Origin: Sporomusa sp.
Lineage (GTDB): Bacteria > Bacillota_C > Negativicutes > Sporomusales > Sporomusaceae
Reading direction: 5' to 3'
Length of the DNA stretch: 11,502 nucleotides
Assembly (NCBI GenBank): GCA_029256645.1
Contig: JAQSXM010000064.1
Span: 1 to 11,502 of the forward strand
Shown here: in pieces, positions 596 to 11,502 of the stretch
Numbering within the stretch: the first letter of the stretch is position 1
Layout of the letters: each line of letters begins with the position of its first letter
Position numbers and translations under genes: made by a program
Notes under the pieces: model-generated
What the model was told of the DNA's origin: nothing
Database searches by the model: none
The model's input: the letters and a program-made list of their open reading frames with translations, nothing else

Positions 596-892
596 ATAGC
601 AAACTTTTGTTGCTCAATTCAATATTATCTAGCTGATTGTGCCGGAAGGGGAGCCGATGGAGATTGAGGCCTGGGTAGTGAAGGGCTGCGGGAGCGGTGA
701 GGCCGAGGGCTGACCAGTGGCAGATGGCTTCGGGCAGGGTGCTGTCCGGGATCTAACCAGTTTGAGGCACTGATTGACAGAGTAGACAGCAGGTTAAAAT
801 CTTTAATCCAGGTGATAAATATTGCAGGAATTTAGTGATGTTCTTAGAAATTCTACAATAATAATGTCAAGGCGCTGATAGGGGTGTTGCAA
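596..892. other. Intergenic gap with GC-rich block upstream of acoR
   Basis: No convincing gene is present. The flanks are AT-rich, but about 636-760 is purine- and GC-rich on the + strand, unlike either side, and no frame stays open with a plausible start. This looks like degraded sequence or a junction between the ATPase gene and the aco locus. An 18-codon reading frame (TTG 822 to TGA 878) has a reasonable AGGTGAT ribosome site at 810-816, but nothing else supports it. A weak hairpin (AGCAA/TTGCT) follows the ATPase stop without a T tract, so it is not a clear terminator. Confidence 0.5.
774..800 (+). promoter_or_regulatory. Possible sigma-70-type promoter of acoR
   Basis: A perfect TTGACA box (774-779) is followed by TAAAAT (795-800), five of six matches to TATAAT. 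The 15-nt spacer is shorter than the preferred 17, which weakens the call. Transcription would start near 807, giving a leader of about 85 nt before the acoR ATG at 893. It is the best housekeeping-type match in the gap, but chance matches are common in such DNA. Confidence 0.35.
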
Positions 893-2872
893 ATGCTTAG
901 AGACAAACCAGCCGGGTTATCTAGTAAAGATTTGGCCTGGAAAGCGTTTATTGGCAAGGGGAAGCTGGAGGGTCAAATCATCTTGCCCGAGATTGCAGAC
1001 TCATGGGTAAGATGTTTTCAGGCAGGTCTTAATTCAGATGACGGCAGAGCTCAGAATATTTTGGAACACGCAGCTGTCCGGATGCTGCTGGAAAAGAATC
1101 AGGAGATTATTAATATAGCAAAGCCATTTATGGCCAATATTTACGAGTTTTTTCGCAACTCGGGTTTTATTGTGGTGTTAGCTGATGTGAACGGCTATGT
1201 GATGGAGTGCTTTGGGGACCGGGATTCGCTGACTAGTGCCAAAAAGCTGCATTTTGTCCGGGGAGCAAGCTGGCGGGAGTGTGATGTGGGCACAAACGCA
1301 ATTGCAATCGGGCTGGCGACCGGTAAACCGGTGCAGGTTTCCGGTGCAGAACATTACTGCGCCAAACATCACTGGTGGACTTGTTCTGCTGCGCCTATTT
1401 ATGGCATTGATGGTCAGATTGTTGCCTTTCTCGATTTATCAGGGCCGGCTCAAGCAGCCTATTCGCATACTTTGGGTATGGTTGCGGCTGCCGCTAACGC
1501 GATTAGCATGCAGATCGGCATGGAGCAGAAGAAGAATGAGCTGTCTTTGATGAATAAGCACTTATCGAGTATATTTAATACAATGTCAGAGGGTGTAATT
1601 TTATTTGATCGTTTCGGTTTAATAAAAGAATACAATCCTATTGCCAGAAAGCTACTGGGACAGAGCAGCGCTTTGCTTCATGGAGCTTCCGTGCAGACAA
1701 TTTTCAAAGGGAATAATCAATTAATACAACAGTTGCTAACCGGCAAAGAGACCGAGATTGAGCTGGAGTTTCAGACCGGCTGTGATTCAGGGCCAAACCG
1801 TTGTGTCATCTCGGGTGAGTCAATCCTTGACAAACAAGGCTGCAGCAATGGCGGGGTTATTATCCTGCGGCCTGCCGAAAAGAGTCATAGTTTAATCAAC
1901 AGGGCAAGCGGCTATTATACGACTTTTCAATTCAAAAATATCCTGGGCAGCAGTGGCGCGATTTTAGAGGCTGTGCGTCAAGCGGCCTCGGCTGCCGTTA
2001 CCGCATCTAATGTTGTTTTGCAGGGGGAAAGCGGTACTGGGAAAGAGATGTTCGCCCAGGCAATCCACAACAAGAGTGCCAGGTGCAGTGGTCCGTTTAT
2101 TGCGTTAAACTGCGGCGCCATCCCCAGAGAGTTAGTGGCAAGCGAACTGTTTGGCTATGAGGACGGCGCGTTTACCGGGGCAAAGCGTGGTGGCAGGGCG
2201 GGGAAATTTGAATTAGCTTCAGGTGGCACCTTGTTTCTTGACGAGATCGGTGATATGCCGTTAGAGCAGCAGGTTGCCTTGCTCAGGGTGCTGCAAGAAA
2301 AGAAGGTTTCCCGGATTGGCGGGAATAAGGTGATCCCTGTTGATGTGCGAATCATTTGTGCAACGAATAAAGAGTTAAACAGGCTTGTTAAAGACGGAAT
2401 GTTCCGGCAGGATTTATACTACCGTTTGAATGTATTTAAGATCGAAATTCCACCCTTGCGGCAGCGGCGGGAGGATATCGAATTACTGTTTCGTAATTTT
2501 GTTAATCAAATTGGCAGTGAGCAGGGACGTGTGTATACGATTGATGCAAGTGTATTTGCACTGATAAACCGGTACAATTGGCCGGGGAATGTCCGGGAAC
2601 TCCATAATGCTGCCGAAAGAGCCTGCAACATGGCGGAAAACGGTGTTATTTCAGTGTCCTGTTTTCCTTCTGAGATTTGCTGTCCCCTTACTACTCTGAA
2701 CCAGGCTGTGACCGGCAATAAGGAGATAAGGCAGGGCCTGCTTGATTATGAGATTGCCAAGATCAGGGCTTTACTTGCGACAGAGGGCGGCAATATAAGC
2801 AGGGTAGCCGGGATACTGGGGATTGCGCGCAGTACGCTTTATCGCAAAATTAAGAGACACTCAATTCACTAA
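893..2872 (+). CDS. acoR: AcoR, sigma-54-dependent activator of acetoin catabolism
   Basis: An enhancer-binding transcription activator of about 659 residues that remodels sigma-54 RNA polymerase using ATP. A GAF-type sensor region occupies roughly residues 60-200 and a PAS domain roughly 220-325. The AAA+ domain (about 345-575) has Walker A GESGTGKE at 378-385, the sigma-54 contact loop GAFTGA at 425-430 and Walker B GGTLFLDE at 444-451. A Fis-type helix-turn-helix ends the protein (NISRVAGILGIARSTLYRK). Architecture and length match AcoR. ATG 893 is chosen because AGGGG at 880-884 sits 8 nt before it; GTG 884 overlaps that site and would add only three residues. The gene ends before the likely AcoR sites and the sigma-54 promoter, with the aco structural genes beyond, so it most likely senses acetoin. 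The ligand is inferred from context. Confidence 0.93.
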   Translation: MLRDKPAGLSSKDLAWKAFIGKGKLEGQIILPEIADSWVRCFQAGLNSDDGRAQNILEHAAVRMLLEKNQEIINIAKPFMANIYEFFRNSGFIVVLADVNGYVMECFGDRDSLTSAKKLHFVRGASWRECDVGTNAIAIGLATGKPVQVSGAEHYCAKHHWWTCSAAPIYGIDGQIVAFLDLSGPAQAAYSHTLGMVAAAANAISMQIGMEQKKNELSLMNKHLSSIFNTMSEGVILFDRFGLIKEYNPIARKLLGQSSALLHGASVQTIFKGNNQLIQQLLTGKETEIELEFQTGCDSGPNRCVISGESILDKQGCSNGGVIILRPAEKSHSLINRASGYYTTFQFKNILGSSGAILEAVRQAASAAVTASNVVLQGESGTGKEMFAQAIHNKSARCSGPFIALNCGAIPRELVASELFGYEDGAFTGAKRGGRAGKFELASGGTLFLDEIGDMPLEQQVALLRVLQEKKVSRIGGNKVIPVDVRIICATNKELNRLVKDGMFRQDLYYRLNVFKIEIPPLRQRREDIELLFRNFVNQIGSEQGRVYTIDASVFALINRYNWPGNVRELHNAAERACNMAENGVISVSCFPSEICCPLTTLNQAVTGNKEIRQGLLDYEIAKIRALLATEGGNISRVAGILGIARSTLYRKIKRHSIH

Positions 2873-2893
2873 TGGACCATCATTGTTGCAAAG

Positions 2894-2958
2894 TGTAGCG
2901 TAAGGTACGTGAACGCTACAGAGTGCTACAATCGATGCTACAATACCCGTTGTAAGCA
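2894..2958 (+). promoter_or_regulatory. Probable AcoR upstream activating sites
   Basis: TGTAGCGT (2894-2901) and ACGCTACA (2913-2920) form a perfect 8-bp inverted repeat with an 11-nt spacer. Two further copies of the right half-site, TGCTACA, follow at 2924-2930 and 2936-2942. A diverged opposite-strand copy, TGTAAGCA, is at 2951-2958. The same-direction half-sites begin at 2914, 2924 and 2936, about one helical turn apart, so proteins would lie on one DNA face. The cluster is about 105-170 bp upstream of the -24 element, the usual place for sites bound by sigma-54 activators. Binding by AcoR is inferred. Confidence 0.75.
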
Positions 2959-3012
2959 AGCTATATATTTGCAGCCGGAAAACAAATAGATATTTCAGAA
3001 TTATGACAATAC

Positions 3013-3056
3013 AGGGAACTGAAGCTCCTGAAAGGGGTTATCAGTTCCCTTTTTTT
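3013..3056 (+). terminator. Intrinsic terminator of acoR
   Basis: A perfect 10-bp stem, AGGGAACTGA (3013-3022) with TCAGTTCCCT (3041-3050), encloses an 18-nt loop and runs directly into seven T residues (3050-3056). It lies about 140 bp after the acoR stop and ends 6 bp before the sigma-54 promoter, so it would insulate the structural operon from acoR read-through. Confidence 0.85.
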
Positions 3057-3061
3057 ATTGT

Positions 3062-3077
3062 TGGCACAAGATTTGCA
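3062..3077 (+). promoter_or_regulatory. Sigma-54 (-24/-12) promoter of the aco operon
   Basis: TGGCAC (3062-3067), a 5-nt spacer and TTGCA (3073-3077) match the sigma-54 consensus TGGCAC-N5-TTGCW. The invariant GG (3063-3064) and GC (3075-3076) are 10 nt apart as required. Transcription should start near 3088, about 54 nt before the first gene. The upstream inverted repeats and adjacent acoR make this the acetoin-inducible promoter. Confidence 0.92.
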
Positions 3078-3141
3078 ATTATAGTGTTGTGCATGGTCAT
3101 TCTTGCAGCTCAGTGAAAACTTTTTAAACGGAGGTGATAAG

Positions 3142-3504
3142 GTGAAACGCAAACGATTTATTGTCGAGCTGGGTATGGGCGCTGATTTACACGGCGGCGA
3201 TGCCACTAAAGCCGCCCAGCGGGCAGTAAAAGACGCCATGTCCAGAAGTTGTCTCTGTGGTTTATTTGACATTGCCGGCATCAGTGACCCTAACCAGATG
3301 CAGGTTGAAGTGCGGATTGGCTGTCCGCAGCCGGAAAAAATCAACCACGATGCGGTTAGAGCGGTAATACCGTTTGGGTCTGTAACTGTGGAAACGGTGT
3401 CAGGAGGGCTTGCGGCCCAGGGACTGCACCTGCCGGCGCTCGGTGAAGGGGATATTATCGTTGTTGCTGTAGCTGCACTTACTGTATATGTTGCAATGTC
3501 TTAA
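3142..3504 (+). CDS. Lin0512 family protein of unknown function
   Basis: A 120-residue cytosolic protein, the first gene after the sigma-54 promoter. I recognise it as the Lin0512 family from the N-terminal motif GxGxDxHG, here G11-M-G-A-D15-L-H17-G18, and from its length. No biochemical function is established for the family to my knowledge. The conserved Asp and His could be catalytic or metal-binding, but that is a guess. There is no signal peptide or clear membrane segment; the C-terminal hydrophobic run (IIVVAVAALTVYVA) is more likely a core beta strand and helix. GTG 3142 is chosen because a strong GGAGGTGA site (3130-3137) sits just upstream; an in-frame TTG at 3103 would lie close to the predicted transcript start and lacks such a site. 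Its leading place in the operon suggests a role with acetoin or the E1 enzyme. Confidence 0.85.
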   Translation: MKRKRFIVELGMGADLHGGDATKAAQRAVKDAMSRSCLCGLFDIAGISDPNQMQVEVRIGCPQPEKINHDAVRAVIPFGSVTVETVSGGLAAQGLHLPALGEGDIIVVAVAALTVYVAMS

Positions 3505-3558
3505 ACTGTTTAGGTTTATTACCATGTATGATCAAGAAGAGAAAATGGGGGGAGAATT

Positions 3559-4521
3559 ATGGAAATTACCAAAGAGAAATTACTGGGCTTTTATGAAACT
3601 ATGCTCACAATCAGGGCGTTTGAAAACAAAGCGGTAGAGTTGTTTGCCGATAATCAACTGCCGGGGTTCGTGCATTTGTATCTTGGGGAAGAAGCGGTCG
3701 CCACCGGTGTTTGCGGCAGCCTGACCGATAAGGACTATATCACGAGTACTCACCGGGGCCATGGGCATTTGCTGGCCAAAGGCGGCAAGGTTGACCTGAT
3801 GATGGCTGAATTGTTTGGTAAGGCAACAGGCTATTGCAAAGGCAAAGGCGGTTCTATGCATATTGCTGACGTTGAACTGGGAATTTTGGGAGCTAACGGT
3901 ATTGTCGGCGCCGGACAGCCGATTTCGGCCGGTGCGGCGTTTGCCTGCCAGTACAAAAAAACCGACGCTGTGGCCGTGTGCTTCTTTGGCGATGCCGCAT
4001 CCAACCGTGGTACTTTCCATGAAGCGTTGAATATGGCTTCCATCTGGAAGCTGCCGCTGGTTTTTATTTGTGAAAATAATATGTACGGTATTTCCAATTG
4101 CCAGCGGGACCACATGCGGATTACTGATGTCTCAGACCGGGCCAGCGCTTATGGCATACCGGGGGTGACTGTGGACGGCAATGATGTGATTGCTGTTTAT
4201 GAAGCGGCCGCTGCGGCTATTGCCCGGGCAAGGAAAGGGGATGGCCCCAGCCTGATTGAATGCAAGACCTGGAGATGGCGCGGCCATTTTGAGGGCGATC
4301 CCGGCGCGTACAAAGACCCGGCAGAACAAGAAGCCTGGCTGCAGAAAGATCCTATTCCCCGGTTTGAACACAAGCTGGTGGAACTAAAATACGCTACCAT
4401 TGCTGAATTAGAGGAAATCAAGACCAAAGTGGACGCTCACATTGCGGCGGCTATTAAATTCTCTCAAGACAGTCCGTATCCTAACCCGGAAGACGCTTTA
4501 ACCGACGTGTACGCAGAATAA
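3559..4521 (+). CDS. acoA: Acetoin dehydrogenase E1 component, alpha subunit
   Basis: The alpha subunit of the thiamine diphosphate-dependent acetoin:DCPIP oxidoreductase, 320 residues, usual for the family. With AcoB it cleaves acetoin, releasing acetaldehyde and passing the acetyl group to the lipoyl arm of AcoC. The ThDP/magnesium-binding motif starts at GDAAS (144-148) and ends at ENN (172-174), the standard GDG...NN spacing. The active-site region STHRGHGH (63-70) is also typical of this E1 alpha class. ATG 3559 follows GGGGGGAG at 3547-3554. It is followed 23 nt later by acoB. Pyruvate or branched-chain 2-oxoacid dehydrogenase alpha subunits are close relatives; the acoR/acoX context favours acetoin. 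Confidence 0.93.
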   Translation: MEITKEKLLGFYETMLTIRAFENKAVELFADNQLPGFVHLYLGEEAVATGVCGSLTDKDYITSTHRGHGHLLAKGGKVDLMMAELFGKATGYCKGKGGSMHIADVELGILGANGIVGAGQPISAGAAFACQYKKTDAVAVCFFGDAASNRGTFHEALNMASIWKLPLVFICENNMYGISNCQRDHMRITDVSDRASAYGIPGVTVDGNDVIAVYEAAAAAIARARKGDGPSLIECKTWRWRGHFEGDPGAYKDPAEQEAWLQKDPIPRFEHKLVELKYATIAELEEIKTKVDAHIAAAIKFSQDSPYPNPEDALTDVYAE

Positions 4522-4544
4522 TCTAATTGAGGAGAGGGTGAAAC

Positions 4545-5516
4545 ATGATGACAGAAATGACTTATGCTGAGGCTATTAGAGATGGAATGCGCGTTGAGAT
4601 GCAAAGGGATTCCAATGTTTTCATTTGGGGCGAGGATGTGGCCAAGTTTGGCGGTTGTTTTGGCGTGACAGGCAACTTGTTTGCCGAGTTTCCCGGGCGG
4701 GTGATTGACACTCCTATTAGTGAAACGGCCATTGTTGGCGCAGCCGTAGGCGCGGCTGCCGCCGGTCTTCGTCCGATTGCCGAAATTATGTTTGTGGATT
4801 TTATGGGGGTTTGTCTGGATGAGTTATTCAATCAGGCGGCAAAAATGCATTATATGTTTGGCGGCAAGGCCAAAATCCCTATGGTACTCAGAACTCCCTG
4901 CGGCGCCGGTATGGGCGCTGCAGCTCAGCATTCACAGTCTATGGAAGCCTGGTTTACTCATATCCCCGGCGTAAAAACGGTGATGCCTTCGACCCCGGCT
5001 GATGCGAAGGGCCTGATGGCGGCCGCGATCCGGGATAACAATCCGGTAATGTATATCGAACATAAGCAGCTTTTTGGCGTCAAAGGCGATGTGCCTGAGG
5101 GCGAGTACGTTATTCCCCTCGGCAAGGCAGATATAAAGAGAGCCGGATCTGATGTCACGATCGTGGCCTGGTCCTGGATGGTTCAAAAAGCATTGGCAGC
5201 AGCCGAAGCACTGGCCGGGGAGGGGATTAATGCCGAAGTGCTTGACCCCCGTACCCTTATCCCGCTTGATACCGAAAGCATCTTACAATCGGTAGGCAAG
5301 ACCGGCAAACTGGTTATCGTTCATGAAGCAGTTAAAACCGGCGGCTTTGGTGGCGAAATCGCCGCTATTGTTGCTGAAGAAGGAATGGATCTGCTGGATG
5401 GTCCAATTAAACGGGTTGCTATGCCTTTTGCCCCGATTCCATTCAGTCCGGCGCTGGAAAGTATTGTCATTCCCAGTGAAGAACAAATCGTGGCTGCCGT
5501 TAAAAGCCTGTTCTAA
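4545..5516 (+). CDS. acoB: Acetoin dehydrogenase E1 component, beta subunit
   Basis: The 323-residue beta subunit that completes the E1 heterotetramer with AcoA. The transketolase-type pyrimidine-binding domain (about 5-180) carries the conserved glutamate E60 in ISETAIVG, which activates the thiamine cofactor, and H129 in AQHSQ. The C-terminal transketolase domain (about 195-315) includes DPRTLIPLD and VHEAVKTGGFG. Two adjacent ATG codons at 4545 and 4548 both fit the purine-rich GAGGAGAGGGTG site at 4529-4540, so the N-terminus is uncertain by one residue. It lies between acoA and acoX, with short gaps that fit a shared transcript. Confidence 0.93.
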   Translation: MMTEMTYAEAIRDGMRVEMQRDSNVFIWGEDVAKFGGCFGVTGNLFAEFPGRVIDTPISETAIVGAAVGAAAAGLRPIAEIMFVDFMGVCLDELFNQAAKMHYMFGGKAKIPMVLRTPCGAGMGAAAQHSQSMEAWFTHIPGVKTVMPSTPADAKGLMAAAIRDNNPVMYIEHKQLFGVKGDVPEGEYVIPLGKADIKRAGSDVTIVAWSWMVQKALAAAEALAGEGINAEVLDPRTLIPLDTESILQSVGKTGKLVIVHEAVKTGGFGGEIAAIVAEEGMDLLDGPIKRVAMPFAPIPFSPALESIVIPSEEQIVAAVKSLF

Positions 5517-5543
5517 CCAGCATACAAGGTGGTGAGGGGAAGT

Positions 5544-6572
5544 ATGGGGCATGTCGGCATCATCGCGAATCCGGCATCTGGTAAGGATATCCGGCGGCTT
5601 GTGGCGTACGGAACGGTTGTGGATAATCAGGAAAAAGTGAATATTGTCCGGCGGCTTATTCTAAGTCTGGCTGCTACCGGCGTTACCAAAATCACATATA
5701 TGCCGGAGTATTATGGCATTGTCCCGGGCGCGGTGGAGAGCATTTGCAGCCGTCACCGGCCGGATATGGAATTTGCAGCGGCAGACATGTGTATGACAGG
5801 CACACAACTGGACAGCTTTCGTGCCGCAGAAATTATGGCCCAATGCGGGGTTGGCTGTTTAATTACGCTGGGCGGTGACGGAACAAACCGCATGGTTGCC
5901 AAGGGTTGCCGGGATGTGCCCCTTCTTCCGATTTCCACTGGGACGAACAATGTTTTTCCCACGTTGGTCGAAGGCACAATCGCCGGTTTGGCGGCCGCCG
6001 TTGTTGCCAAAGGGCTGGTAACCGGGGCACCGGCCATAAAACCCAGTAAGAAGCTTAACATCTATAAGAATGGCCGGCTGATTGATAGTGCGATTGTTGA
6101 TGCGGTTGTGCTTAATGAAGCTTTTATTGGTTCAAGGGCAGTCTGGGATGCCAAAAAAATCAGGCGTATTGTAGTGACCAGAGGCGAGCCGCATAACATC
6201 GGCATAGCGTCAATCGCCGGTAATCTGGTCCCTGTGATGCCAGGTGAGCCCAGAGGGGCCGATATTGAAGTAGGTCCAGGCAGCATTCAACTGCGCGCTC
6301 CGATTGCACCAGGCCTGATTGAACAGGTACCGGTCCGGAATTATGGCTATATCAGGATTGGTCAGGTTATTGAGGTCAATGAAGCCTGTGTAATTGCTTT
6401 AGACGGAGAGCGGGAGGTTGAGATCCGGGCCGGGGAAAAAGCTCATATTGAGCTGACTTTTGACGGGCCTAAAGTAATCGATGCTGAAGCGGCGCTGCGC
6501 ATAGCTGTCGCCGGCGGCTATAGTAAGTTCAACAACAACTTTAAACCAGTTCACGATGAGGAGGAGCAGTAA
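5544..6572 (+). CDS. acoX: AcoX, NAD-kinase-like protein of acetoin catabolism
   Basis: A 342-residue protein of the ATP-NAD kinase/diacylglycerol kinase fold superfamily, matching AcoX of known aco operons; its precise reaction is not established. The nucleotide-binding motif GGDGTNR is at 110-116, preceded by the N-terminal NPASGKDIR (9-17) and followed by STGTNN (131-136). ATG 5544 is chosen because AGGTGGTGA (5527-5535) lies 8 nt upstream; GTG codons at 5529 and 5532 are part of that site. The stop overlaps the acoC start by one base (TAATG), indicating translational coupling. I recall the order acoA-acoB-acoX-acoC from Clostridium magnum. A role in forming or repairing a cofactor for the complex is plausible but unproven. 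Confidence 0.88.
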   Translation: MGHVGIIANPASGKDIRRLVAYGTVVDNQEKVNIVRRLILSLAATGVTKITYMPEYYGIVPGAVESICSRHRPDMEFAAADMCMTGTQLDSFRAAEIMAQCGVGCLITLGGDGTNRMVAKGCRDVPLLPISTGTNNVFPTLVEGTIAGLAAAVVAKGLVTGAPAIKPSKKLNIYKNGRLIDSAIVDAVVLNEAFIGSRAVWDAKKIRRIVVTRGEPHNIGIASIAGNLVPVMPGEPRGADIEVGPGSIQLRAPIAPGLIEQVPVRNYGYIRIGQVIEVNEACVIALDGEREVEIRAGEKAHIELTFDGPKVIDAEAALRIAVAGGYSKFNNNFKPVHDEEEQ

Positions 6573-7768
6573 TGGCCACAGAGGTTAATATGCCGAAACT
6601 AGGCTTGTCCATGAAAGAAGGTACTGTAGGCAAATGGCTGATCAATGAAGGAGACCCAGTCAAAAAGGGCGATGCCCTGCTGGAAGTCATGACAGATAAG
6701 ATTGCCAATAAAATTGATGCCCCAGCCGATGGGGTTTTGCTAAAAATTGTTGCCAATAAGAAAGCTAAACTCCCGATTGGCGGTCTCCTGGGGGTTATCG
6801 GCAATGCGGGTGAAGATATTAGCGAACTGTTAAGGTCTGCTGCCAACAGTACTGCCAGGGTGGCTCCGGCTGGTAAGACCACAGGCGGGCAGCCGGCCAG
6901 GAAAGCAGTGGCTGCCGTACCAGGCGCCAGGGTGAAAATTTCTCCGGCAGCCCGGGCGCTGGCTGAAGCAAATGCCATTGATTATACCGTGATTGCCGGC
7001 ACAGGGCCGGAAGGACGGATTGTCAGGGAAGATGTAGAGCAGGCAATCGCTAACGCGAGCGCAGCAGCAGACGACCGCGCTGTCATTGAGGTCATTCCTT
7101 ATGAGGGAATGCGTCAGGCTATCGGTGAAAACATGGCCAATAGCTGGGCTGTAGCACCTAAGGTTACTCACCATGTGGGCGTGGACTTATCGGCACTGCA
7201 GGTTTTGCGGGCCACAATCAATGCCGATGTAAAAGATACCGAAAAAATCTCCGTCACCGACATCCTTGTTAAAGCGGTTGCAAAAGCGTTGCAGGCTCAC
7301 CCCAGGATTAACTCGACCCTGAGCGGGGATGAGATCAGGGTGTTGCAAGATATCAATGTCGGGGTGGCTATCGCGATTCCGGATGGATTAGTTGTTCCGG
7401 TCGTTAAGAATGCCAACCAAAAGAGCCTGGCTGATGTTAGCAAGCAAATTAAGGATTTTGCCAAACGGGCCCGGAAAAACAAGCTTGACCCGGAAGAGAT
7501 GACTGGTGGTACCTTCACCATTACTAATTTGGGTGGCTATGGGTCGGTCGATTACTTTACTCCCATTATCAATCAACCGGAGTCAGCCATCTTAGGTGTC
7601 GGGCGGACTGTCAGACAGCCTGCTGTTCAGGGCGAACAGATTGTCATTAAACCCATCATGGGCCTGTCTCTGGCCTTTGATCACAGGGTAATTGACGGCG
7701 CACCGGCAGCAGAATTTTTGGCCTTGTTAATTAAACTTATCGAACAACCACACAAAATCTTTATTTAA
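6572..7768 (+). CDS. acoC: Acetoin dehydrogenase E2, dihydrolipoamide acetyltransferase
   Basis: The 398-residue core of the complex, transferring the acetyl group from E1 to CoA. The N-terminal lipoyl domain (about 1-80) carries the lipoylated lysine K43 in MTDKIANK. An Ala/Pro/Gly-rich flexible linker follows (about 88-120). The peripheral subunit-binding domain is at 121-160 (ISPAARALA, GPEGRIVREDV). The catalytic domain (about 172-398) ends with the active-site motif DHRVIDG, with H371 and D375. All three domains are intact and there is one lipoyl domain. The start codon overlaps the acoX stop, and the GAGGAG site at 6559-6564 lies inside acoX. K43 is a natural target for the lipoylation enzymes encoded downstream. 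Confidence 0.94.
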   Translation: MATEVNMPKLGLSMKEGTVGKWLINEGDPVKKGDALLEVMTDKIANKIDAPADGVLLKIVANKKAKLPIGGLLGVIGNAGEDISELLRSAANSTARVAPAGKTTGGQPARKAVAAVPGARVKISPAARALAEANAIDYTVIAGTGPEGRIVREDVEQAIANASAAADDRAVIEVIPYEGMRQAIGENMANSWAVAPKVTHHVGVDLSALQVLRATINADVKDTEKISVTDILVKAVAKALQAHPRINSTLSGDEIRVLQDINVGVAIAIPDGLVVPVVKNANQKSLADVSKQIKDFAKRARKNKLDPEEMTGGTFTITNLGGYGSVDYFTPIINQPESAILGVGRTVRQPAVQGEQIVIKPIMGLSLAFDHRVIDGAPAAEFLALLIKLIEQPHKIFI

Positions 7769-7809
7769 TCGTTACGCTCAAAATAAAAAAGAAAAGGCAG
7801 GGAGATACA

Positions 7810-8151
7810 ATGGCAGGAGATTGCATGGAATTAGTGAGTGAACTACAGACAGGAATGGGTCAGGTACAAGCTGAGAGCCCGGAGCTTATGGCCGCATTCG
7901 TGCAGATGGATCAGGCCGCCTATGTGGAAGGGGAATTAGAGCGCAAGTACAAAGAACTGATTGGTATCGGCATTGCTCTGGCCGTACGCTGCGAATATTG
8001 TATGAATATTCATGTTAAAAATGCCTTGGCAGAGGGAGCTACCAGAGAGGAAATACTGGAAGCCGCCGCAGTTGCCGTCGCTTTTGGCGGGTCACCGGCT
8101 ATGGCGTACCTGTCCACCACGATTATGAAAGCGCTTGATGCTTTCGAGTAA
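7810..8151 (+). CDS. AhpD-like/carboxymuconolactone decarboxylase family protein
   Basis: A 113-residue all-alpha protein of the CMD/AhpD family. The redox motif C61-E-Y-C64 is followed by H68, and E49 lies 12 residues before C61. This reproduces the Glu-X11-Cys-X2-Cys-X3-His spacing known from mycobacterial AhpD, a peroxidase-linked disulfide reductase reduced by a lipoylated E2. The histidine that AhpD has between the cysteines is replaced here by Y63. The cysteine pair argues against a true decarboxylase. ATG 7810 follows AGGGAGA at 7799-7805, and the stop overlaps the lipA start by one base. Downstream of acoC, it may exchange electrons with the lipoyl arm or take part in sulfur or peroxide chemistry; that is inference. 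Confidence 0.85.
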   Translation: MAGDCMELVSELQTGMGQVQAESPELMAAFVQMDQAAYVEGELERKYKELIGIGIALAVRCEYCMNIHVKNALAEGATREEILEAAAVAVAFGGSPAMAYLSTTIMKALDAFE

Positions 8152-9032
8152 TGGACAAAACTGCCGGTATGCCTACTGACAGACCACCGTGGCTTACTTT
8201 GCCGGTGCCTGAAGAACCGGCGCTCAACCGTATGAAAGCGCTGCTGGACCAAGGCCGGTTACATACCGTGTGTGAAAGCGCCGACTGTCCCAATATCGGC
8301 GAATGCTTTGGCAATAAGACCTGTACGTTTATGATTTTAGGCAACCACTGTACCCGGAATTGCCGCTTTTGCGCGGTGAACCATGGACTTCCGGAGGCGG
8401 TAGATCATAATGAACCACACATGCTGGCAGCGACTGCTAAGCAGTTAGGGTTAAAACACGTTGTTATTACATCGGTAACCCGGGATGACCTCGCTGATGG
8501 AGGGGCCAGGCAATTTGCTGCAGCTATAGCGACGGTGCGAGACCTGTTGCCTAAGGCCGGTATAGAGGTACTTATTCCGGATTTTAAGGGAAACCGGGAG
8601 GCATTGCAGACTGTGCTCCAGGCTAAACCCAATATCCTTAACCATAATATCGAAACTGTACCTAGACTTTATCCGGTCGTTCGGCCACAGGCGGTTTATT
8701 CGCGTTCCCTGGAACTCATAAACCGGACCAGTCAGGCTGGGGCCGGGATATTGCCCAAATCAGGCTTGATGCTGGGACTCGGTGAAGAGATCGCTGAAGT
8801 AGTTGAAGTAATGAAAGATTTACATCATTGCGGCTGTAAAATGCTGACCCTTGGACAATATCTTAGCCCATCCCCAGATCATTTACCTGTTGTGGAATAC
8901 ATACATCCCGATGTGTTTACATGGCTGGCGCAGGAAGCTCAAAAAATCGGCTTTTCTCAGGTGAGTGCCGGACCGATGGTGCGTAGTTCTTATCACGCCG
9001 GGTACTCTTTTTCCGAACTGGCCCAGGCGTGA
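8151..9032 (+). CDS. lipA: Lipoyl synthase (radical SAM)
   Basis: The 293-residue enzyme that inserts two sulfurs into protein-bound octanoyl groups to make lipoyl groups. Both iron-sulfur clusters are visible: the auxiliary, sulfur-donating cluster ligands C41, C46 and C52 (CX4CX5C) and the radical SAM ligands C67, C71 and C74 (CX3CX2C). The C-terminal RSSYHAG at 278-284 supplies the conserved serine ligand of the auxiliary cluster. The start is coupled to the preceding stop (TAATG). It is full length with all key residues present. A lipoyl synthase gene (acoS) in an aco operon is known from Pelobacter carbinolicus, as I recall, so this location has precedent. Confidence 0.95.
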   Translation: MDKTAGMPTDRPPWLTLPVPEEPALNRMKALLDQGRLHTVCESADCPNIGECFGNKTCTFMILGNHCTRNCRFCAVNHGLPEAVDHNEPHMLAATAKQLGLKHVVITSVTRDDLADGGARQFAAAIATVRDLLPKAGIEVLIPDFKGNREALQTVLQAKPNILNHNIETVPRLYPVVRPQAVYSRSLELINRTSQAGAGILPKSGLMLGLGEEIAEVVEVMKDLHHCGCKMLTLGQYLSPSPDHLPVVEYIHPDVFTWLAQEAQKIGFSQVSAGPMVRSSYHAGYSFSELAQA

Positions 9033-9062
9033 GCCAACCGCCAGTTTTATCCGATGACTAAC

Positions 9063-9117
9063 CCGCTCTAAGACTCGCAGCTTCTGCAAGTGGGAGTTAA
9101 GAGCGGCTAAGTCTCAC
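9063..9117 (+). repeat. Structured intergenic inverted repeats after lipA
   Basis: The 114-bp gap between lipA and the next gene contains overlapping inverted repeats. CCGCTCT (9063-9069) pairs with AGAGCGG (9100-9106), extended by ACTC (9073-9076) with GAGT (9094-9097), and encloses a small GCAG-CTT-CTGC hairpin (9077-9087). Alternatively GTGGGAGTTA (9090-9099) can pair with TAAGTCTCAC (9108-9117) around an 8-nt loop, with one mismatch and one G-T pair. The two folds exclude each other. Only a TTTA follows, so it is not a classical terminator. It may be a dispersed intergenic repeat, an mRNA-processing site or an attenuator. Confidence 0.55.
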
Positions 9118-9146
9118 TTTATCAGTATTCATTAGGAGGGACACGA

Positions 9147-9446
9147 ATGCTTAAAGCAGCCTTTGTTTTTGTTGCGCCTGAGGCCAACAGCAAGCAGCAT
9201 AGGTCGGTGATAACTACCCCTGCTGTGGAATTGACCGTTGTGGGGGTAAGCGATGTTCAGTCAGCTGTTGCGGCAGTGGAAGAGCTTGTTGAACAAGGCA
9301 TAGGAGCTATTGAATTATGCGGTGGTTTTGGACATGAAGGGGTGGCAGCCGTTAAAAAGGCGGCTAATAAGCAGGCTGTTGTCGGCGTAGTACGGTTTGA
9401 TGTTCACCCCGGACTGGATGGAAAAAGCGGCGATGATGTTTTTTGA
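9147..9446 (+). CDS. DUF6506-type conserved hypothetical protein
   Basis: A small 99-residue cytosolic protein with no signal peptide or membrane segment. The sequence, with IELCGGFG at 55-62 (cysteine C58) and the C-terminal RFDVHPG (83-89) followed by GKSGDDVF, fits the family I recall as DUF6506, whose function is unknown. The pattern of alternating hydrophobic strands and an Ala/Val/Glu helix suggests a compact alpha/beta fold. ATG 9147 has an excellent AGGAGG site (9134-9139) at 7-nt spacing, and its translation probably drives that of lipB, which overlaps its stop. A position between lipA and lipB hints at a lipoyl-related task, but nothing in the sequence defines one. Confidence 0.8.
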   Translation: MLKAAFVFVAPEANSKQHRSVITTPAVELTVVGVSDVQSAVAAVEELVEQGIGAIELCGGFGHEGVAAVKKAANKQAVVGVVRFDVHPGLDGKSGDDVF

Positions 9447-10156
9447 GAGAGCAGATTAGCCGTAAAGCCTGCAAGTTATTACTGTTAGGACGCATTCCTT
9501 ACACTGAGGCGTGGCAATTACAACAAGAGATTGCGGCGGCACGCCGCAGCGGCAGCGGTAAAGATACCTTACTGCTTGTTGAGCATTTGCCTGTGTACAC
9601 GCTGGGAAGGTCGGGCAGTAAGTCAAACATTAAGGTCTCAGATGAGGTCCTGTTAACAGCGGGACTTGAGGTCATTGAAGTCGACCGGGGCGGGGATGTC
9701 ACTTATCATGGCCCCGGTCAACTGGTAGGGTATCCGATATTGGACCTCAGGGGCTACCAACAGGACTTGCACCGCTATGCAGAGATGCTTGAGGAAGTCA
9801 TTATCAGGACACTGGACCAATATGGGATAAAGGGCTTCCGGGAAAATGGCTTAACCGGGGTATGGACCGCTAGTGGAAAAATAGCTGCTATCGGCATCGG
9901 GGCGCGCGGCTGGGTAACCATGCACGGTTTTGCCTTGAATGTACATCCTGATATGGATTATTTTGGCTTAATTAATCCTTGTGGTATAACCAATCGACCA
10001 GTTGTGTCAATGCAAGCGCTGGGTGTTGATGTGACCCTTGATAAAGTTAGCAAAAAGATGGTTGAGCAGTTTGCCGATATTTTCGGTGTAGAGTTTTCAT
10101 TAATTAAGCGTGATTGCTTACACGCTGGGCCGGGAAGCCGGTATGGAGGGCAATAA
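9443..10156 (+). CDS. lipB: Lipoyl(octanoyl) transferase LipB
   Basis: The 237-residue enzyme that moves octanoyl from acyl carrier protein to lipoyl-domain lysines, the substrate step before LipA. The family motif RGGDVTYHGPGQLVGYP is at 82-98, the catalytic lysine K146 in GKIAAIG, and the catalytic cysteine C180 in INPCGI. The start is a TTG at 9443 that overlaps the preceding stop (TTGA, 4 nt). An in-frame stop at 9434-9436 rules out a start further upstream, and no strong ribosome site is seen, so translation is probably coupled to the gene before it. The last 15 or so residues, after the core fold, are a short polar tail. Confidence 0.93.
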   Translation: MREQISRKACKLLLLGRIPYTEAWQLQQEIAAARRSGSGKDTLLLVEHLPVYTLGRSGSKSNIKVSDEVLLTAGLEVIEVDRGGDVTYHGPGQLVGYPILDLRGYQQDLHRYAEMLEEVIIRTLDQYGIKGFRENGLTGVWTASGKIAAIGIGARGWVTMHGFALNVHPDMDYFGLINPCGITNRPVVSMQALGVDVTLDKVSKKMVEQFADIFGVEFSLIKRDCLHAGPGSRYGGQ

Positions 10157-11248
10157 ATGGACCTATATCGGCTGGGGGCTATACCGTGGGATGAGACACA
10201 GGCTATCTATCATGCATTGGCACAAAATCAACAGGAAGGGCTGGTCATCTGCCGCCCTGCCGGACGCTGTGTTTGCCTGGGCCTGCATGATGACTTGCTG
10301 CAAGAGGTCGACACGAACTATTGCCAGGGAAATAATATTCCAATTATCAGGCGGGATATCGGCGGCGGCATGGTCTTGCTGGCCGTAGAACAGATCTTTT
10401 TTCAACTGGTATTGCGGGCCGGTAATCCGCTGCTGACAGGCCGGCGAGAAGAATTTTTTACCCGGTTTTTACAACCTGCCATAAAAACATTAGCAGACTT
10501 TTCGATCAAGGCCGTGATTAAACCTCCTGCCGACATTGTTGTTAACGGTAAAAAAATTTCCGGGAACGGTGCCGGCGATATCAATGGTTTTTCAGTGTAT
10601 ACAGGCAATATTTTACTTGCCTTTGACCGAACAGCCATGGCCAATGTCCTCAATGTCACCAGCAGCCGGTTTCGCGAGCAGCTCAGGTTGTCAATGGAGC
10701 GGTATTTAACATCTATGAGTGAAGAACTTGGTTATATGCCGGACTACGGGACAGTCGAAGACTGGTTGGTCTATCATTTTTCAGCATGGCTGGATCTAAA
10801 GCGGGGTGAATACTCCGCAGATCTGCAGCAAGCCGTCAATAAGGCGGCAAAGTACCTAACCAGTCCTGAGTTTTTAAACCTACCTGGCAAGCAGTCCAGG
10901 GTACGTCAGGTAAAGATCAATGAAGGAACTTATGTACGCCTGCATCCATTTCCCCAATGCATCAAGACAACTGTTGCCGGTCAAAGTGGCTGCGGCAACA
11001 GGCGCGGCGGGCCATGCTCAGGTTACGCTATCCTGGTGGTTCAGAATAATAAAATAGTTGAATTTGAGAGTCATGGGCTAACATGCCTGGCGGAATGCAA
11101 GTTGAATTTGCTGGCAACCTGTCTGATTGGCAGCTATTGGCACGAGCGTGATGTCAGGAATGCTTTGGCGCAATGGCTCCACAATGATGAGCGTGGCGCA
11201 GTTAAAGTTTTTAAAGACACACTAATTGATTGGATACTAGCTAGATAG
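10157..11248 (+). CDS. Divergent lipoate-protein ligase A-like protein with Cys-rich C-terminus
   Basis: A 363-residue protein whose N-terminal ~240 residues match the LplA/BPL fold. RRDIGGG (65-71) corresponds to the RRxSGGG lipoate-binding loop and GKKISGNGAGD (131-141) to the catalytic GxKISGSA loop, with K133 as the expected key lysine. The usual VxHD after GGG is replaced by MVLLAVEQ, and the usual HHGTLL by YTGNILL, so ordinary ligase activity is not assured. The C-terminal ~100 residues carry six cysteines (268, 279, 287, 310, 314, 322) plus H306. Part of this region (about 291-340) resembles in pattern the small accessory domain of LplA. ATG 10157 abuts the lipB stop, with GGAGGG at 10145-10150. 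It could be a lipoate ligase, an octanoyl/lipoyl amidotransferase, or a metal- or redox-linked variant. Confidence 0.8.
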   Translation: MDLYRLGAIPWDETQAIYHALAQNQQEGLVICRPAGRCVCLGLHDDLLQEVDTNYCQGNNIPIIRRDIGGGMVLLAVEQIFFQLVLRAGNPLLTGRREEFFTRFLQPAIKTLADFSIKAVIKPPADIVVNGKKISGNGAGDINGFSVYTGNILLAFDRTAMANVLNVTSSRFREQLRLSMERYLTSMSEELGYMPDYGTVEDWLVYHFSAWLDLKRGEYSADLQQAVNKAAKYLTSPEFLNLPGKQSRVRQVKINEGTYVRLHPFPQCIKTTVAGQSGCGNRRGGPCSGYAILVVQNNKIVEFESHGLTCLAECKLNLLATCLIGSYWHERDVRNALAQWLHNDERGAVKVFKDTLIDWILAR

Positions 11249-11268
11249 AACATAGGGAGTGATTTTTA

Positions 11269-11502
11269 GTGGCACAGTATGACATTCCGCAAGAACTCTA
11301 TTATACAAACGATCACGCGTGGGTGAAGGTGGAAGGGAGCACAGTTCGTATTGGCATCACCGATTTTATGCAAAAATTGGCAGGAGAGATTACCTTTATC
11401 CGGATTCCCCGTGTGGGCAAAGCACTTGCGGCCGGTGCAACGCTCAGCTCAATCCAGTCGGGTAAGTGGGCTGGCAAGATTCAGGTGCCGATGGCGGGAA
11501 AG
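11269..11502 (+). CDS. GcvH-like lipoyl carrier protein, 3' end outside window
   Basis: The first 78 codons of a glycine cleavage H-protein-like gene, running off the window in frame. The family start is clear: YYTNDHAWVKVEG (11-23) matches the HxWxK region, followed by IGITDFMQKLAGEI. The lipoylated lysine is expected at K66 in IQSGKWAGKI. The usual context is ESVKA, so the conserved glutamate is glutamine here and the following residues differ. GTG 11269 has AGGGAG (11254-11259) 9 nt upstream. No gcvT or gcvP is seen, and the neighbour is an LplA-like protein, so it may be a dedicated lipoyl carrier or lipoylation relay protein rather than part of glycine cleavage. Confidence 0.82.
   Translation, partial: MAQYDIPQELYYTNDHAWVKVEGSTVRIGITDFMQKLAGEITFIRIPRVGKALAAGATLSSIQSGKWAGKIQVPMAGK

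Follow-up and report, generated by a model that had tools for sequence, protein, structure and literature searches.

The window analysed here, 11,502 nt of Sporomusa sp. contig JAQSXM010000064.1, encodes an acetoin-type (aco) dehydrogenase with E1 alpha and beta subunits (AcoA and AcoB) and an E2 with lipoyl, binding and catalytic domains (AcoC), followed by lipoylation genes and by a gene for a lipoyl carrier resembling the glycine-cleavage H protein (GcvH1), inside which the 3′ edge of the window falls. We lean towards the view that this dehydrogenase works without a dihydrolipoamide dehydrogenase (E3) of its own, and that the carriers, together with a GlcD-like flavin adenine dinucleotide (FAD) protein and a CCG-type iron-sulfur (Fe-S) protein, replace it. 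The arrangement is confirmed, is conserved and extends past the window.

With the LplA-like ligase of the window as query, 38 loci were collected from genome contigs (loci and genomes are designated L and G below), the first five being those of named Sporomusa genomes. In those five the whole lipA-DUF6506-lipB-LplA-GcvH block stands in identical order. The initial annotation had allowed that the block might exist in this one genome only; it recurs in seven of the 12 genomes of the Sporomusa malonica family, the five named Sporomusa plus G010, where acoR is separated from the gene run (L078), and G011. Beyond GcvH1, all seven family loci continue with genes for the GlcD-like FAD protein, the CCG-type Fe-S protein, a second carrier (GcvH2), a second ligase (Lpl2), a LipT-like protein, LipS2 and LipS1, and none of these seven runs showed an E3. 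Between GcvH1 and LipS1, the genes of L001 are spaced by -8 to +46 bases; LipS1 (217 bits, cut-off 230) and LipS2 (235 bits, cut-off 270) both score just under their cut-offs, and the LipT-like protein, a geranylgeranyl-reductase-family flavoprotein, is named by context, without a model. Three of the seven loci (L001, L002 and L063) have a third ligase after these genes, at the operon end; in L001 (18897-20498) it is fused to a DUF116 domain, and L002 and L063 hold similar open reading frames (ORFs).

The module extends beyond this family. We detected the LplA-like protein (E ≤ 1e-20) in 11 of 300 class genomes, and the GlcD-like protein (E ≤ 1e-70) in the same 11. In four class genomes outside the Sporomusa family (G051, G075, G040 and G049) the module follows a different E1/E2 set (acoA/acoB 55-57% and acoC 39-40% identical), with a gene for a major facilitator superfamily-type transporter present. 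A search of 348 genomes of the phylum returned the GlcD-like gene at E ≤ 1e-90 in 12, S. malonica included; seven of the 11 further genomes hold the module adjoining an acoC-type E2, three hold a GlcD-CCG-GcvH-ligase-LipS set without E1/E2, and one (G554) holds GlcD-CCG without GcvH or lip genes. Pairing LplA-like and GlcD-like matches by a same-size longest contig gave 17 pairs among the listed rows (55 of 73 and 45 of 120, respectively), which is suggestive only. A chance cluster is ruled out by conservation in the seven Sporomusa-family loci and, with the other E1/E2 set, in the four class genomes beyond them.

E3 and the GlcD-like gene at E1 loci

We collected 77 E1-beta loci from 46 of the 300 class genomes, scoring per genome the best five candidates for E3 and for the GlcD-like protein and the best seven for E1 beta, and counting an E3 as nearby when it exceeded the TIGR01350 cut-off within 15 kb. 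E3 was nearby at 41 loci, the GlcD-like gene at 15 (12 genes, since three clusters hold two E1 pairs), neither at 21 and both at none. Independence would predict eight loci with both (P = 1.6e-6, a value that is only a guide because the loci are related). Across all 23 module loci of class and phylum, no E3 match of at least 200 bits was found. Restricting the comparison to loci that share at least 70% identity with the AcoB of the window left 23, of which eight have the GlcD-like gene, six E3 and nine neither; among these nine, two stop at a contig end (G008 and G009), one starts at one judging by coordinate (G045), five show no acoC across the part read, and the last, G019, is weighed below. 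We read 12 of the 21 loci with neither: L114, L116, L118 and L119 reach a contig end, L115, L117 and L120 have other contexts, and L109-L113 gave no acoC E2 or E3 match within the stretch read. These last five, each from a different genome, carry acoR-acoA-acoB-acoX runs (Lin0512 in four, DUF6506 in four) with AcoA/AcoB about 75% identical to those of the window.

Three loci with E3 were read. L121 is ordered acoR-acoA-acoB-acoC-lipB-lipA-DUF6506-E3, L104 has the same gene order and is truncated at acoB, and L122 is ordered acoABXC-lipB-lipA-E3; the E3 proteins of L121 and L122 exceed the cut-off, and none of the three stretches contains an LplA-like or GcvH-like match. The genome of L104 (G075) has the module at a different place on that contig, and those of the other two, G066 and G117, do not belong to the 11 that have the LplA-like protein. 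With lipB-lipA present at these loci, lipoylation of E2 there seems not to need the LplA-like protein. At L070 and L100 a long E3, with an N-terminal extension that resembles a lipoyl domain by look, adjoins a ligase and a transporter-like gene.

In Sporomusa sp. KB1 (G003), ORFs for the entire run are present, and a search of the assembly for E3 found none over the cut-off (top match 135 bits versus 408.8), nor was GcvPB found. The S. ovata locus L067 contains at 857-8701 a gcvH-gcvPA-gcvPB-LipS1-LipS2-ligase-E3 run; in KB1 the sequences flanking this stretch are separated by 790 bases, within a 5.2 Mb contig free of N, an empty site for one of S. ovata's two gcv-E3 operons. If KB1 uses this E2, re-oxidation by something other than a classical E3 would be expected. 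The lipoate-ligase family PF21948 has three matches in KB1, all inside the aco operon (lipB and both ligases). The possibility, raised in the initial annotation, that the lip genes are the sole housekeeping set and lie here by chance agrees with KB1 in so far as these are its only PF21948 genes, but E2 and both carriers share the run with them.

Genes of the window and their expression

The features of the window, all read from ORFs and family models unless noted, are as follows.
2-595: ORF that looks ATPase-like, open 5′ part; upstream of acoR and apparently unrelated
884..2872, +: acoR-like sigma-54 activator with GAF, AAA+ and Fis-type helix-turn-helix domains (Pfam; top NCBIfam model DhaR, under its cut-off)
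3062..3077, +: sigma-54 (-24/-12) promoter-like site, the sole exact consensus match in the window
3142..3504, +: Lin0512-family protein, leading the gene run (PF09585)
3559..4521, +: acoA, thiamine pyrophosphate (TPP)-dependent E1 alpha, acetoin- or pyruvate dehydrogenase (PDH)-type (ORF; TIGR03182 371.3 bits, under cut-off)
4545..5516, +: acoB, E1 beta, acetoin- or PDH-type (ORF; PRK09212 above cut-off)
5529..6572, +: acoX, NAD-kinase-like (PF01513)
6572..7768, +: acoC, E2 with one lipoyl domain (Lys43), a subunit-binding domain and a catalytic domain (PF00364, PF02817, PF00198; DHRVIDG)
7810..8151, +: AhpD/CMD-family protein, between acoC and lipA (PF02627)
8151..9032, +: lipA, lipoyl synthase (TIGR00510 349.7 bits, cut-off 310.25; motifs)
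9147..9446, +: DUF6506 protein (PF20116)
9443..10156, +: lipB, octanoyltransferase (TIGR00214 176.9 bits, cut-off 83.55; motifs)
10157..11248, +: LplA-like ligase with C-terminal accessory region (PF21948 98.2 bits; NCBIfam lipoyltrans 82.6 versus 280; predicted-structure and fold matches; Lys133)
11269..11502, +: GcvH1, first 78 codons, with Lys66 in QSGKWAGK (PF01597; motif)

ORFs and families confirm the initial call of lipA, DUF6506, lipB, an LplA-like and a GcvH-like gene after acoABXC, on one strand and closely spaced (41, -1, 114, -4, 0 and 20 bases from acoC through ahpD to the GcvH-like gene). LipA retains CX4CX5C, CX3CX2C and RSSY, LipB retains GKIA and PCGI, the LplA-like protein has RRxxGGG and Lys133, and the lipoyl lysines of AcoC and GcvH1 are present. 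E1 beta matches PRK09212, a PDH-type subfamily model of NCBIfam, at 383.8 bits (cut-off 321), and E1 alpha falls narrowly under its PDH model (371.3 versus 393.85). Acetoin is the presumed substrate on the basis of acoX, the AcoR-like regulator and neighbouring genes, such as a zinc alcohol dehydrogenase gene in L137 and a similar ORF in L136, and of no family cut-off. Lin0512 and DUF6506 proteins are encoded repeatedly in aco operons, whether or not E2 is present.

With up to two mismatches allowed, the sigma-54 consensus has six sites in the window versus 8.7 in shuffled sequences, so only the exact match at 3062-3077 and its position count. A sigma-54-like site, TGGCAY-N5-TTGCW, stands 5′ of the first gene in all seven Sporomusa-family loci (L001-L005, L077 and L078) and upstream in L135-L139, and it precedes the transporter gene in L073, L075 and L076; a search upstream in L074, L108, L121 and L122 did not find it. 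Separate promoters for the lip genes, another point raised initially, are disfavoured, as scans of 7600-11502 gave no sign of a break (seven sigma-70 matches versus 4.3 in shuffles, and four terminator matches versus 3.8). The block is probably the middle of one long sigma-54-driven operon, its layout suggesting a single transcript, though transcription may break inside the 114-base lipA-DUF6506 gap.

Redox pair, carriers and ligase

The predicted structure of the GlcD-like protein (mean predicted local distance difference test score, pLDDT, 92.0) matches D-lactate dehydrogenase structures with a template-modelling (TM) score of 0.81. In GlcD and D-2-hydroxyacid dehydrogenases, HxGDxNxH and GEHG have functional roles; both motifs were seen in an alignment of LctD and in none of 120 GlcD-like homologues, 116 of which carry PYGxGLW. 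A canonical 2-hydroxyacid role is disfavoured by these missing motifs. The Fe-S protein has two CX(28-40)CCGX(25-45)CX2C motifs of the HdrB/HdrD-like type in 23 of 23 loci. Against solved structures it matches an Fe-S-binding reductase at 147.5 bits and HdrB weakly (26 bits), and its nearest family models, TfrB, LdhH and GlpC, are all under cut-off. E3 carries out dithiol-disulfide chemistry, and a CCG/FAD pair of this kind would suit the same chemistry.

That the GcvH-like proteins are glycine-cleavage H proteins located in an aco operon is highly improbable. They match PF01597, and GcvH1 of L001 passes PRK01202 (124.1 bits over 117), but it falls under the TIGR00527 cut-off (104.2 versus 115.85), whereas gcv operons have H proteins of their own that score 174.3 bits on that model. 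The motifs differ as well: QSGKWAGK in GcvH1 (17 loci) and E(A/S/T)GKW(V/I)G(R/K) in GcvH2 (20 loci) are unlike the ESVKAVSD of eight gcv operons. A tree of 48 rows places the glycine-cleavage H proteins in one clade (100/99), GcvH1 in another (92/95) and archaeal carriers encoded beside a ligase gene, which by context we take to be LbpA, in a third (100/99); GcvH2 requires two changes, and the deep branching order is weak. GcvPB is absent from four of the 11 module genomes (G003, G010, G040 and G049), all of which have GcvH1 and GcvH2. Several gcv operons (L065, L066, L067, L068, L099, L103 and L105) carry LipS1-LipS2-ligase and E3 genes of their own. The initial annotation had offered for the GcvH-like protein either a Bacillus-type relay, in which octanoyl or lipoyl groups pass onto it and then to E2 through the LplA-like protein as a LipL-type amidotransferase, or a carrier with another purpose. 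The latter fits better with the FAD/Fe-S pair and the missing E3 of the related loci, a stretch that the window does not reach. The relay, unlikely in our estimation, is supported by the adjoining octanoyltransferase, LplA-like and GcvH-like genes. LipM and LipL of that relay use a catalytic Cys; in the LplA-like alignment of 56 rows (55 of 73 search matches plus three loci, less two short rows), which contains no LipM/LipL reference, Lys133 and C32 are present in 56 of 56 and C56 in 55 of 56. The C-terminal residues C268, C279 and C287 occur in 22-24 of the 56 and may form a metal site. The LplA-like protein has the ligase fold, RRxxGGG and catalytic Lys that mark LplA: in its predicted structure (mean pLDDT 91.6) LplA ligases rank first among fold matches, while 2p5i (BH3822), which we take to be LipL-like, ranks 33rd. 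Its catalytic domain lies near the archaeal ligase 3r07 (TM 0.82 by target), and full-length matches have a root-mean-square deviation near 13, from which we read that the two domains of the model are placed differently relative to the matched structures. The relay itself is established in Bacillus, as the available part of PMC10332631 describes; the E3-bearing L104, L121 and L122, with lipB-lipA and without an LplA-like or GcvH-like match, speak against it here. Since the LplA-like gene goes with GcvH-like genes and both are missing from these E3-bearing stretches, the carriers are probably the substrates of the ligase.

The more serious alternative, which we hold to be possible though less probable than E3 replacement, is a conventional acetoin-type dehydrogenase that relies on an unlinked E3, such as that of glycine cleavage, with the extra genes forming an independent, co-regulated enzyme. 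Several observations weigh for it or against replacement. Of 18 genomes in which the module adjoins an acoC-type E2, 17 encode an E3 over the cut-off elsewhere, which could supply the complex, and the KB1 argument rests on one genome; several Sporomusa gcv operons contain E3, and AcoC retains PF02817, a domain that can bind E3 in such complexes. L141, L143 and L144 hold the GlcD-CCG-GcvH-ligase set, with LipT- and LipS1/S2-like genes, without E1/E2, and the module is therefore not tied to acetoin. L142 and L144 encode a pyridine-nucleotide disulfide-type oxidoreductase that weakly matches E3 (119 bits in L144, cut-off 408.8). In G051, the acoABXC-ahpD-GlcD-CCG run of L098 has no adjoining GcvH, and GcvH1 and GcvH2 lie at another locus; in G019 (L115), acoABXC and DUF6506 stand without E3 or the module in their vicinity. 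Four of the seven further aco loci with the module lack the LplA-like gene, which weakens a strict link of ligase and carrier and tells against the relay too. PDH-type models are the best matches of E1 and E2, with E2 and E1 alpha under the cut-offs. What the unlinked E3 does not account for is KB1, with all operon ORFs, no E3 over the cut-off and the site of one gcv-E3 operon empty and free of gaps, and the absence of any E1 locus, among 77, with both E3 and the GlcD-like gene.

Proposed mechanism and known systems

If the carriers and the CCG/FAD pair replace E3, E1 (AcoAB) would cleave the substrate, and E2, lipoylated by LipB and LipA, would accept the acyl group on its lipoyl arm for transfer to coenzyme A. 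The LplA-like ligase, with the second ligase and the LipT- and LipS1/S2-like proteins of relatives, would produce lipoyl-GcvH1 and lipoyl-GcvH2. Electrons could then move from dihydrolipoyl-E2 to these carriers by thiol exchange. Gene context suggests that the Fe-S protein, with its two non-cubane cluster motifs, and the GlcD-like protein would re-oxidise the carrier and deliver its electrons not to E3-bound NAD+ but to another acceptor, possibly menaquinone. More tentatively, this may be a new lipoyl redox chemistry, in which H-protein-like carriers and a heterodisulfide-reductase-like CCG/FAD oxidoreductase replace E3 in TPP-E1/E2 complexes, the same module occurring in molybdopterin-enzyme and aldo-keto-reductase loci across Bacillota. 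The GlcD-CCG pair without E1/E2 adjoins an aldo-keto reductase in L141 and L143 and a molybdopterin oxidoreductase in L142 and L144.

E3 is taught as a fixed component of lipoate-dependent dehydrogenase complexes. A natural swap, if true, would be a non-NAD exit for lipoyl electrons, would account for the additional H-like proteins of some anaerobes and for two lipoate pathways sharing an operon there, and would make Sporomusa a testable model for CCG/FAD pairs currently annotated as glycolate or lactate oxidase. A search of titles and abstract openings, its coverage leaving out most subscription journals, found no published account of such a swap.

Of the known systems, the aco cluster of Pelobacter carbinolicus has AcoL, whose L we take to denote E3, whereas the Sporomusa run has no E3 and has ligases, GcvH-like carriers and, in relatives, the FAD/Fe-S pair. 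In other respects that cluster, acoABCSL with lipB in the available part of PMC3543383, is similar: E1, E2, acoX, the lipoyl synthase gene acoS and lipB run in the same direction, with acoR. The initial reading, in which an aco-type operon brings its own lipoylation genes, is supported, with precedent for both acoS/lipA and lipB. The sHdr-LbpA sulfur oxidation system shares a GcvH-like carrier, a dedicated ligase, LipS1/S2- and LipT-like genes and a CCG Fe-S protein (available parts of PMC6067878 and PMC10332631), and for its LbpA carriers, which act with an Hdr-like complex, E3 was proposed for re-oxidation (PMC6067878). In relatives of the window, a carrier distinct from the glycine-cleavage H protein likewise has LipS1/S2, ligase and LipT genes nearby, and the carrier-ligase gene pair also occurs in archaeal loci L006-L009. 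Here, unlike in that system, one CCG protein and a GlcD-like FAD protein replace the sHdr set, and the partner is an acetoin-type E1/E2; no full set of sHdr subunits was found, either by family assignment of the nine genes that follow LplA in L001 or by BLAST labels at other loci. The linkage of LipA and LipS1/S2 in Sporomusa is already published (PMC10332631), in an article whose available part does not contain the term acetoin. For S. ovata, the available part of PMC9430772 reports that lipoate/dihydrolipoate had no effect when tried with another, Hdr-containing complex. With GlcD/LctD-type enzymes the GlcD-like protein shares the D-lactate dehydrogenase fold and an Fe-S partner nearest the TfrB, LdhH and GlpC models, and it differs in lacking HxGDxNxH and GEHG. 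The Bacillus LipM/LipL relay likewise brings together an octanoyltransferase, an LplA-fold protein and a GcvH-like protein; in Sporomusa LipB replaces LipM, the ligase is of the LplA type, and E3-bearing sister operons have LipA and LipB alone.

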